In this document: positions 49,756-57,402 of the stretch, in pieces
Position numbering within the stretch: position 1 is the stretch's first letter
Layout: the number at the start of each line of letters is the position of its first letter
Source: Salinadaptatus halalkaliphilus
GTDB lineage: Archaea; Halobacteriota; Halobacteria; Halobacteriales; Natrialbaceae
Length of the DNA stretch: 64,000 bases
Direction of reading: 5' to 3'
Assembly: GCF_006543045.1 (NCBI RefSeq)
Contig: NZ_RBZW01000008.1
Span: 1 to 64,000, forward strand
Program-made: the position numbers and the translations under genes
The notes under the pieces: generated by a model
What the model was told of the DNA's origin: nothing
The model's input: the letters and a program-made list of their open reading frames with translations, nothing else
Database searches by the model: none

Positions 49756-50301
49756 GGGTGAGAGGAGTAAGCCCCCTTCTGTTCGACCCGGCATTCGGCT
49801 GAGCGTCCGCCCCGTCCGCGGCGAACCGCGGGTCGTTCGGGCTACCACGGGACGGACTTGCACCGGTGAGGATTCGCCGTTCCATCGATCCTCGGCCGTC
49901 TCTCCGCAGCCGACCGTGCCACGCGTTCGGCGGGTGTCCCGCCACGCGGTCTGTGTTCTCACATCGAGAACCGAACACGGTCTGCGGTTTCGAACCGCGG
50001 TGTTCGACTGCGGGAATGCGCGCGGTTGAGGCCGCTCGCGGTTCGCGGTCAGGAGACCGCGTCCCTCTGCGGGTTAGCTACCCTTCCTTGCGGTCGGGGT
50101 CGCACGCGTCATCGGTCGGGCCGAGACGTGTCGTTTCTGTTCCAGAGCCAGCGGTCTCGCGCTCCGGACTTGCGTCCGGTCACCTGCCCAAACGGGTGGG
50201 GGGACTTTCCTCGCGGGCGTGATGCACCCTGACGGGATGGATCACGTACGGTGGCCGGCCGTTGCCGGTCCGGCCATCGCGGCAGCCGGGCTCTCTCTCC
50301 C
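49756..50301 (-). ncRNA. rnpB: RNase P RNA, archaeal type A
   Basis: On the minus strand, CR-I GAGGAAAGTCCCCCCACC is near 50197-50214 and CR-V ACAGAAGGGGGCTTA near 49766-49781, with a GCTAACCCGCAGAGGGACGC segment between them resembling CR-IV neighbourhood. GGGAGAGAG at 50293-50301 pairs with CTCTCACCC at 49756-49764 to form P1, which sets both ends. The hairpin GTGAT...ATCAC (about 50226-50252) and CCGGACGCAAGTCCGG (50165-50180 region) are clear. It is about 546 nt, long for archaea, mainly from the P2-P3 region. Confidence 0.92.
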
Positions 50302-54645: not shown

Positions 54646-56406
54646 TTATGGGGCGTCCGTTCCGTCGTCGTCGATCGCACCGCCGTAGACAACGCCGCGC
54701 TCGGCGTCGATCGTTACGACCGCTCCCTCCTCGGCCTCGGCAACGTCGGCGTCGCTGATCATCGGGAGCGAAAGTTCTCTGGCGACTAGCGCCGGATACC
54801 CCGTCATGCCACGCTGAGCGTTGACGATGCCGGCGATCTTCGAGACGTCGCCCGAAAACTCGTCGTCGAACTCGGTGCCCAACGCGAGGATCGCTCCCTC
54901 GGGAACCGACGAGAGGTCGCCATCGGTTACCCGCACGAGCGGTCCGGTCGCCCGCCCTTCGACGACGACTCGGCCGGTCGTCAGCGCCTCGGCGGCGACG
55001 TGGACTTTGAGCATGTTCGTCGTGTTTGCCCCCTCGAGGTCGGTCATCATCCCACAGAGGACGACGACGGTGTCGCCGCTCTCGGCGACGCCGGCATCGA
55101 GGGCGGACTGGACGGCGCGTTCGATGACGGCGTCGGCACCCTGATCCGAAACGTCGGCGTACAGCGGGGTGACGCCCCAGGAGAGGGCGAGTCGACGACG
55201 AACACGATGGCTCGGCGTCGAGGCGACGACCGGGACGCCCGGCCGGTACTTCGCGGTCTTCAGGGCCGTGTAGCCGGACTCGGTCGCGGCGACGACCGCG
55301 TCGGCACCGATGTCACGTGCGAGAAATCGCGCGGACCGGGCCAGTGCGTCGGTTCGGGCCTCGCCCGCGGCCGGGACGCGTTGTTCGAGCAGCTCGTCGT
55401 ACTCATCGGAACGTTCGACTTCCCGGACGATGCTGTCCATCGCGTCGACGACGGCGATCGGGTGGTCGCCGATAGCCGTCTCGCCGGAGAGCATCACGGC
55501 GTCGGTGCCGTCGAGGACGGCGTTTGCCACGTCAGAGGCCTCCGCGCGGGTCGGACGACGCGCCTCGACCATCGAGTCGAGCATCTCCGTGGCCGTGATC
55601 ACCGGGAGGCCGGCGTCGCGACACTCCCGGATGATACGCTTTTGAATCATCGGCACCTCCTCCATCGGACACTCGACACCGAGATCGCCGCGTGCGACCA
55701 TGATCCCCTGGGCTGCGTCGACGATTTCGTCGATGTTCTCGACGGCACCGGCCCGTTCGATCTTCGCGACGATCGGAATGTCGGCGCCCAGTTCCTCGAG
55801 GACCTCGTTGACCTCGTAGATGTCCTCGGCGTCGCGAACGAAACTCGCGGCGACGAAGTCGACCGACTTCTCGGCGGCGAGTTCGAGATCCTCGCGATCC
55901 GATTCGGTGACGATCTCGAGATCGAGGTCGACGCCGGGGACGTTGACGCCCTTCCGGCCGCCGAGTTCGCCGCCGGTGTCGACGCGCGCGTAGATATCCG
56001 AGCCGTCGCACTCGAGGACGGTCGTCTCGATCAGCCCGTCGTCGAGCAGGATGCGGTCGCCGGGTTCGACGGCGCCGATCGACAGCGACAGCGAGACGAC
56101 CTCGGGCGAGACCGTCTCGCCCTCCCGAAAGACGATTTCGGAGCCGGTCTCGAGAGACACCGTCTTCCCCGCTGGCAACGGTGCGGTCCGAACCTCGGGG
56201 CCTTGCATGTCGAGCATGACGGCGACGGGTTCCTCGCGTTCCTCGTCGACCGCACGCACGCGATCGATCAGTTCGGCCCGGTCTTGGCGACTGCCGTGAC
56301 TCGCGTTCAACCGCGCCACGGACATCCCGGCCTCGGCCAGCTCTCGAACCGTCTCTCGATCGCTCGAGGCGGGCCCCAACGTACAGACGATCTTCGCGTT
56401 TCGCAT
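54646..56406 (-). CDS. pyk: pyruvate kinase with C-terminal PEP-utiliser extension
   Basis: A 586-residue enzyme. The barrel starts MRNAKIVCTLGPASSDRETV; ARLNASHGSRQDR, VAKIERAGAVENIDEI with the catalytic Lys, ARGDLGVECP and TRAEASDVANAVLDGTDAVM follow. Residues 490-580 are an extra domain with the PEP-utiliser swivelling pattern (IVNAQRGMTGYPALVARELS), as in Bacillus pyruvate kinase, but the phospho-His is replaced (GMTGYP). It converts PEP to pyruvate. The upstream box CTATCTTTTTG is about 30 nt before ATG 56406. Confidence 0.95.
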   Translation of the reverse strand: MRNAKIVCTLGPASSDRETVRELAEAGMSVARLNASHGSRQDRAELIDRVRAVDEEREEPVAVMLDMQGPEVRTAPLPAGKTVSLETGSEIVFREGETVSPEVVSLSLSIGAVEPGDRILLDDGLIETTVLECDGSDIYARVDTGGELGGRKGVNVPGVDLDLEIVTESDREDLELAAEKSVDFVAASFVRDAEDIYEVNEVLEELGADIPIVAKIERAGAVENIDEIVDAAQGIMVARGDLGVECPMEEVPMIQKRIIRECRDAGLPVITATEMLDSMVEARRPTRAEASDVANAVLDGTDAVMLSGETAIGDHPIAVVDAMDSIVREVERSDEYDELLEQRVPAAGEARTDALARSARFLARDIGADAVVAATESGYTALKTAKYRPGVPVVASTPSHRVRRRLALSWGVTPLYADVSDQGADAVIERAVQSALDAGVAESGDTVVVLCGMMTDLEGANTTNMLKVHVAAEALTTGRVVVEGRATGPLVRVTDGDLSSVPEGAILALGTEFDDEFSGDVSKIAGIVNAQRGMTGYPALVARELSLPMISDADVAEAEEGAVVTIDAERGVVYGGAIDDDGTDAP

Positions 56407-56554
56407 ATCTCGGGCTACCGCGAGGACGGGCAAAAAGATAGTTGATTTACTCGGTGTCGAGTGATGTTCGGCCACATCCATCGGCCGATCGGTCGACGAC
56501 TCCGGTCGTGGCGACGGACGCCGTGAAACTGCGCTTCCCGTCTTGTGCCACTCA

Positions 56555-56634: not shown

Positions 56635-56746
56635 TCAATCGTTTTCCGGATCTTCGTTGAGTCATCGACTATACCGACCTACCTTTCAACAGCGAGAGAG
56701 TCCCGCCCTACCCATGATTTTCTGCCCGCTGGGGTCGTGCCCATCA

Positions 56747-56853
56747 TACTGTCGGACAGAAGTCAGTAAAGCGTCGGTCGCGAATTCGCGGCCGTCCTTA
56801 CGGTGACGGCCGCAGTACTGCGACCGATCGTTGAATAGTTCTGTCCAACAGTA
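56747..56853. mobile_element. 107-bp MITE with 15-bp inverted ends and TCA duplication
   Basis: Terminal inverted repeats TACTGTCGGACAGAA (56747-56761) and TTCTGTCCAACAGTA (56839-56853) differ at one position. Internal inverted repeats nest inside: TCGGTCGC/GCGACCGA and GCGGCCGTC/GACGGCCGC around the loop CTTACGGT. TCA at 56744-56746 and 56854-56856 is a 3-bp target duplication. There is no coding capacity. Its ends differ from the TACGG family but the target triplet is the same. Confidence 0.82.
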
Positions 56854-56914
56854 TCAGTAACAACTCGGGAAACGTGGGTGTGGTTTGGCGTTCACCCGTC
56901 ATCAAAAACGCGAG

Positions 56915-57120
56915 CCTGCCCGAGTCAGACTCGGACGCAAGTCCCAGTCAGGCGGATGGCACCGCCCGCACGGGCCAAGCGGATACCCAAGCACACCACT
57001 CCCGCACGGGACTGACGGCTTGCGTGCAAACCGGAGTACCTGCAAGGGAAATCTTGCCTCCGGTGGTGTCGGACCGGCCAACCCCACACGAGAGGAAAGT
57101 CTCGGCGTTTACGCCGAGGA
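56915..57120 (+). ncRNA. candidate structured RNA / 5' leader of the GYD gene
   Basis: A run of strong local helices: CGAGTC-A-GACTCG (56921-56933), GGAC-GCAA-GTCC with a GNRA loop (56933-56944), CCCGCACGGG twice (56965-56974 and 57001-57010), ACCGGAG/CTCCGGT enclosing GCAAG/CTTGC (57030-57064), then two mutually exclusive hairpins CGAGA/TCTCG (57089-57104) and CTCGGCG/CGCCGAG (57101-57118) ending 9 bp before the next ATG. No convincing protein frame. It could be an independent sRNA, a switch-like leader, or the right end of a decayed IS200/IS605 (TnpB) element. Confidence 0.4.
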
Positions 57121-57126
57121 TGTCAT

Positions 57127-57402
57127 ATGTCGCTCATTCGTCTCGGCGATCGAGACGTTCAGAACGCCCAGGAGATGGCCGCCGTCTGGGGTGAGATTCG
57201 AACCGAGTTCGAACAACACAACGCGACCCTCGAGGAGTCTTACGCCATCCTCGGCGAACACGACTTTCTCATCATCTTCGAAGCGGACGATCACGAGGCG
57301 GGGTTCAAATCCGCGTTGACGCTGCGCCGACACGGGCTCCGAGGGCAGACGATGGAACTCGTCGACACCGACGACTTCTCGGATCTGGTCGACGAGATCT
57401 GA
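57127..57402 (+). CDS. GYD-domain protein
   Basis: A 91-residue dimeric alpha-beta barrel protein of the GYD family. FEQHNATLEESYAILGEHDF and IIFEADDHEAGFKSALTL match the pattern, with the family GxYD motif as LGEHD. Function is unknown. It is a single gene with a highly structured region just upstream. Confidence 0.8.
   Translation: MSLIRLGDRDVQNAQEMAAVWGEIRTEFEQHNATLEESYAILGEHDFLIIFEADDHEAGFKSALTLRRHGLRGQTMELVDTDDFSDLVDEI

Follow-up and report, generated by a model that had tools for sequence, protein, structure and literature searches.

A TnpB-free IS200/IS605-type element with a probable omega-RNA right end in a GYD-domain gene of Salinadaptatus halalkaliphilus, and its relatives across haloarchaea

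Introduction

The PATEs of Haloquadratum walsbyi, such as HqIRS71, are short, transposase-free elements with IS605-like hairpins at their ends and no target duplication, and HqIRS71 looks like a lengthened terminal segment that includes part of the 3' coding region of tnpB (PMC3119063). Elements of this type are often struck by small mobile repeats (PMC3119063). In ISDra2, the right end gives a reRNA, or omega RNA, whose scaffold derives from the tnpB 3' end (PMC8612924, PMC10097598) and in which a 5' hairpin loop forms a pseudoknot with the last bases before the guide (PMC10097598). The guide comes from the flank, and the motif on the other flank is the insertion target (PMC8612924, PMC10097598). 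The sotRNAs of Halobacterium salinarum, now counted as omega RNAs, are expressed RNAs from IS200/IS605 right ends (PMC12558985).

Here we describe a locus in a window of 64,000 nucleotides from Salinadaptatus halalkaliphilus (RefSeq assembly GCF_006543045.1, contig NZ_RBZW01000008.1, positions 1 to 64,000). A strongly folded segment of this window very probably forms the omega-RNA right end of a mini-transposon of the PATE type, a TnpB-free IS200/IS605 element that occupies 56683-57126. It is like the PATEs in being short and transposase-free, with end hairpins, no duplication, a piece of the tnpB 3' end, and an inserted mobile repeat. It is unlike the PATEs as described, which are treated as non-coding DNA (PMC3119063), in that its family has an omega-RNA scaffold, covarying helices, a pseudoknot, a 5' domain, and a promoter-like box; the separation from HqIRS71 is one of description. 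With ISDra2 it shares the right-end scaffold, the pseudoknot, and the flank-derived guide opposite a target motif, but it has no tnpB, carries an extra 5' module (P1 and P2), and has the target YTAY instead of TTGAT. Like the H. salinarum omega RNAs it is haloarchaeal and has a right-end hairpin and a pseudoknot with the terminal bases (TEM) (PMC12558985), but those RNAs overlap tnpB genes, whereas the family of the window stands alone.

Results

The element lies exactly between codons 4 and 5 of a GYD-domain gene, with the junction CTAC / element ending TCAT / ATGTCGCTC. In 12 orthologues (L031-L042), where the element is not present, the gene starts ATG-CC(G/A)-AC-TAC-(GCN or ATG)-TCN-CT, with minor variations; in the window, ATA-CCG-ACC-TAC comes before the element and ATG-TCG-CTC after it. 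With the element taken out, the two flanks join as IPTYMSLIRLGDRDVQNAQ and the frame is restored. The original start codon (56671-56673) is now ATA, a decay that presumably followed the insertion, and the ATG further downstream has taken over. The nearest relatives of the GYD gene are from Natrialbaceae, and the host genome is 4.5 Mb in size, with the window on its contig C73. Adjoining the GYD gene is a pyruvate kinase gene with a C-terminal PEP-utilisers domain (54646-56445, minus strand), and similar sequence also lies upstream of the GYD gene in several relatives.

The limits of the element are based on the end of homology to other copies on both sides, on empty orthologous sites, and on the absence of a target duplication. 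A BLAST search of 195 genomes from the order with this segment returned dispersed relatives of 90%, 86%, and 78% identity that end at or beside the same base (..GGATGTCAT), and one genome (G144) has two copies with identical ends at unrelated sites. These common ends place the element at 56683-57126. The preliminary description, made from the sequence of the window, had put the structured segment at 56915-57126; this was too short, as it left out the start of the RNA module, near 56864, and that of the element, at 56683. That description had also remarked on a hairpin close to an ATG. P9 does end at 57119 and the ATG begins at 57127, a spacing that arises because the insertion sets a transposon end against the gene. 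The features are collected in Table 1.

Table 1. Features of the element and its insertion site, in window coordinates
Feature	Position	Strand	Basis or remark
Remnant of original GYD start, ATA(ATG)-CCG-ACC-TAC	56671..56682	+	GYD orthologues L031-L042
CTAC insertion target, presumed TAM	56679..56682	+	Homologous copies at unrelated sites have YTAY before the left end
Whole TnpB-free IS200/IS605-type element (PATE-like), nested second element included	56683..57126	+	
Left end, damaged, with guide-type GAGAG and the LE hairpin's 5' arm	56683..56712	+	Aligned against 12 further left ends
AT-rich promoter-like box (TATA position in relatives)	56714..56723	+	AT peak over 60 copies
Nested MITE-like element, 109 bp, inverted repeats ATACTGTCGGACAGAA / TTCTGTCCAACAGTAT	56746..56854	+	Between promoter-like box and RNA
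5' RNA module, stand-alone copies only	56864..56948	+	A1/A2 alignments, covariation, model R1
P1	56875-56880/56893-56898	+	Within 5' RNA module; conserved CAAAAA in same module
P2	56929-56933/56944-56948	+	Within 5' RNA module
P3 hairpin, GGCGG-AUGGCA-CCGCC	56951..56966	+	100% pairing in A3, with a double change from CG to GC
P3 loop, pseudoknot strand	56956-56961	+	
P4 long-range helix	56968..57027 (56968-56976 with 57017-57020 and 57023-57027)	+	98.2% paired
P8 helix, CCUCCGGUGG.../...CCAC.CGAGAGG	57057..57095	+	Double changes in 10/14 pairs (A1)
P9 / right-end hairpin, CTCGGCG-TTTA-CGCCGAG	57100..57119	+	Covarying hairpin; DNA fold z -3.97
TGTCAT, last bases of element (TEM)	57121..57126	+	Pairs with P3 loop AUGGCA
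Predicted 16-nt guide (ATGTCGCTCATTCGTC), start of GYD reading frame	57127..57142	+	Directly after TEM
GYD-domain gene, start now at former codon 5	57127..57402	+	PF08734, E 1.2e-18; orthologues L031-L042

The window copy is the only one in its genome and is probably crippled for movement, based on three defects. The 3' arm of its LE hairpin is deleted (the GGGCGGGCGTGAATCGCG block in relatives), and the left-end DNA fold has a z of 0.13 versus -2.41 for another left end (L112). At the right end, where the pre-hairpin guide GAAA sits just 5' of P9 and TCAT is the cleavage site, the GAG between P9 and the TEM has been lost (3 nt). The third defect is the nested element, which also alters the spacing between the RNA and the promoter-like box. 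With 43 matches in its own genome, 26 of them at 95-100% identity, this MITE-like element must recently have been very active. Despite the damage to these movement features, the RNA helices of the window copy are intact.

The 3' ends and right ends of nine tnpB loci align with the window, sharing the blocks (G)GGTCGATGGCACGGCC ... CAAACCGGAGTACC ... CTTGCCTCCG ... GGAGGATGTCA. A C-terminal TnpB peptide is left in the window as a vestige (RANRSTCKGNLASGGVG versus RTNRSTRKGKLASVGAA). The part containing P3 is in a different frame from this peptide, so the segment no longer codes for protein. The window, itself a training sequence of covariance model R2, scores 160.8 bits with it (E 4.7e-45). The P1/P2 module does not occur in the TnpB-coupled copies.

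The strong helices of the preliminary description exist, on comparative rather than thermodynamic grounds. The minimum free energy, -84.7 kcal/mol, is by itself unremarkable (z = -1.58), as 14 of 200 shuffled sequences fold as well. In a MAFFT alignment of 15 stand-alone copies spanning six helices, however, 94.8% of the cells at 45 consensus pairs are paired and 23 pairs have changes on both sides; none of 500 shuffles reached this value, and sliding the partners lowered pairing to 37-49%. When stand-alone and TnpB-coupled copies are aligned together, pairing reaches 100% in P3 and 98.2% in P4; double changes are frequent, positions in P4 show as many as four pair types, and again 0/500 shuffles do as well. 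Two model-fitted alignments of 74 and 64 rows agree (0/500 each), although such alignments lean towards the model. The expected GNRA-type loop is GCAA at 56937-56940, the tip of P2. The sequence CCCGCACGGG, which had been taken for a duplicated hairpin, does occur twice (56965-56974 and 57001-57010), but the first copy forms no hairpin and instead runs from the 3' strand of P3 into the 5' strand of P4. A further stem of the minimum-energy fold, CCGGAG/CTCCGG, was unsupported in the conservation test.

The pseudoknot diagnostic of omega RNAs is present and covaries: the P3 loop AUGGCA pairs with the terminal UGUCAU, the last bases before the guide. In a strict motif scan its variable position is canonical in all 63 cases (A-U 59, C-G 3, U-A 1), and in model alignment A5 it is A-U in 58, U-A in 2, C-G in 1, and unpaired in 2. 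The window element thus combines scaffold homology to the tnpB 3' and right end, this pseudoknot, a flank-derived guide, and a conserved structure. The proposal that the segment is a TnpB omega-RNA right end with a guide reading into the GYD gene is borne out by the strong covariation, by the homology to haloarchaeal IS200/IS605 right ends, and by the position of the predicted guide (57127-57142) directly after the TEM; the added phrase that it was left after loss of tnpB proved incomplete. Strict and loose Rfam searches gave no credible match in 56700-57400 and none at the gathering score.

The relatives form a dispersed, multicopy, TnpB-free family with its own 5' domain. Covariance model R1, built from the 5' module and P3 of the 15 stand-alone copies, matches 75 of the 392 genomes of the order and 44 of its 96 genera, the weakest matches (near E 1e-3) being less certain. 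Only 6 of 76 copies examined with their flanks lie within about 2 kb of any TnpB frame, and no such frame is fused to the RNA. Well-preserved copies have the order YTAY target, LE hairpin, AT-rich box (about -48 from P1), RNA, RE hairpin, GGATGTCA(A/T). The target before homologous left ends takes the forms TTAC, CTAC, or CTAT, and over 60 copies the AT content peaks at 0.63-0.82 between -51 and -45 relative to the P1 anchor. As in PATEs, there are subterminal hairpins at both ends, an IS605-type target without duplication, no transposase gene inside, and multiple copies at unrelated sites. Several genomes hold two or three copies at such sites (multicopy genomes are G268, G116, G100, G144, G368, and G300). 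Near-identical copies carry differing 3' flanks and hence different guides. With its own ends, a promoter-like box, and a site-specific 3' guide in each copy, this is a dispersed mobile family of stand-alone omega RNAs and not a single relic. Six matches were found in haloarchaeal plasmid records and none in the phage records searched.

The right ends also follow a code. In those ending in TCAT the hairpin is preceded by GAAA or GAAC, in no case by GAAT (14/14), and those ending in TCAA nearly always have GAAT (p = 1.6e-10 for the code, ignoring kinship). This pairing resembles the guide code of IS608, in which site choice is set by a tetranucleotide at the base of the hairpin (PMC7290912).

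The host genome has 27 TnpB-domain matches and three Y1 transposases. An intact TnpA-TnpB element (C45:20218-21899) gives a strong scaffold match and has TTAC/TCAA ends, unlike the CTAC/TCAT of the window. The CTAC/TCAT type was found in this genome only as a relic nearby (L178, C45:19016-19215, minus strand), which has lost most of tnpB and keeps its left end, scaffold, and right end; it is plausibly an intermediate in the birth of stand-alone elements. Elsewhere, TnpB-coupled and stand-alone right ends are both TCAT in G109, G268, G244, G243, G144, and G198 and both TCAA in G138, G116, G100, G237, and G047, and they are mismatched in some genomes (e.g., G300, G321, and G106). Other strong TnpB-type scaffolds occur in about 18 of 19 carriers and 14 of 20 non-carriers, a weak difference.

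Discussion

We propose that these are non-autonomous IS200/IS605 elements whose cargo would be a stand-alone omega RNA, laid out as a 5' domain (P1 and P2), a TnpB-type scaffold (P3, P4, P8, P9, and the pseudoknot), and a guide from the adjoining DNA. A Y1 TnpA would mobilise the element in trans. The RNA would be transcribed and loaded by a related TnpB, also in trans, and the complex would cut the restored empty site, CTAC+ATGTCGCTCATTCG, favouring copy-back of the element. That the RNA is transcribed and serves TnpB in trans is extrapolated here from established TnpB biology (PMC8612924). The P1/P2 domain may serve stability, loading, or regulation. Haloarchaea would then hold a widespread class of mobile genes that make nothing but a guide RNA, an omega RNA equipped with a promoter of its own and an extra 5' domain; these genes would borrow TnpA to spread and TnpB for site protection, with end types often matching those of TnpB elements in the same genome. 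We put the probability of this reading at about one half.

The chief alternative is that the locus is a DNA fossil only, a tnpB-deleted IS605 right end with a fold inherited from the parent element and no function in itself. The origin of PATEs by internal deletion has been described (PMC3119063, PMC7290912), the same genome holds a clear tnpB-deletion relic in L178, and the window copy is single and damaged. The family as a whole fits this account less well. Its conserved 5' module and promoter-like box are not found in TnpB-coupled copies, compensatory changes have been kept in P1 and P2 although the tnpB parents have neither helix, and several genomes hold two or three copies at unrelated sites. 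We therefore regard a mere fossil as unlikely, if still a serious contender.

Another account is that the guide RNA has been domesticated: in the manner of TldR repressors, a TnpB-like protein would use the guide on the GYD side to control a host gene. An RNA fold that is intact although the transposition features are broken would suit this account, as would the many TnpB proteins of the genome. But the predicted guide has no second perfect match in its own genome, the best other match there (C41:223311) has one mismatch and no CTAC motif, and the search gave no convincing targets elsewhere. The insertion is not common to the GYD orthologues compared and gives no sign of retention, which leaves domestication very improbable.

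A cis-acting leader that switches the GYD gene through alternative hairpins, as the preliminary description had offered, is just as hard to credit: the segment does stand directly before the new ATG and the competing stem CGAGA/TCTCG (57089-57104) can be drawn, but that stem is not conserved (66.7% paired versus 67.3% in shuffles, 390/500 at or above the observed value), the whole segment is missing from the GYD orthologues, and homologous RNAs adjoin unrelated sequences. The further option of a free small RNA misses the transposon.

Compared with known PATEs and omega RNAs, what appears to be new is that stand-alone omega RNAs form a dispersed family with a 5' domain of their own. No earlier description of such a family turned up in the literature searched, which was mainly open-access. 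Altae-Tran et al. are said to have described stand-alone (trans) omega RNAs in IscB systems in 2021; these are likewise guide-RNA loci with no adjoining nuclease gene, but the nuclease family differs and we claim no homology. The scatter of relatives among haloarchaea suggests that guide RNAs have spread separately from their nuclease. If our mobile guide-RNA reading is confirmed, guide RNAs of the Cas12 ancestor are not bound to their nuclease gene; they would make up a separate mobile family and draw on nucleases in trans, a step comparable to the separation of tracr/crRNA from the effector in CRISPR. It would also bear on why haloarchaea hold many PATEs and many tnpB genes without a linked tnpA. 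A model of the R1/R2 type could serve to annotate about a fifth of the sampled genomes of the order, where Rfam offers nothing at this locus.

Two more stand-alone omega-RNA-like loci occur in the same genome (L186, C28:337783-337979, and L187, C17:35279-35425). They apparently come from a different TnpB clade (like L047 and L056) and have another 5' sequence in common, which suggests that stand-alone guide RNAs arose more than once. Elsewhere in the window, the archaeal RNase P RNA (49756-50301, minus strand) is 546 bases long against a model of 288 positions, which suggests an insertion or long additional arms.
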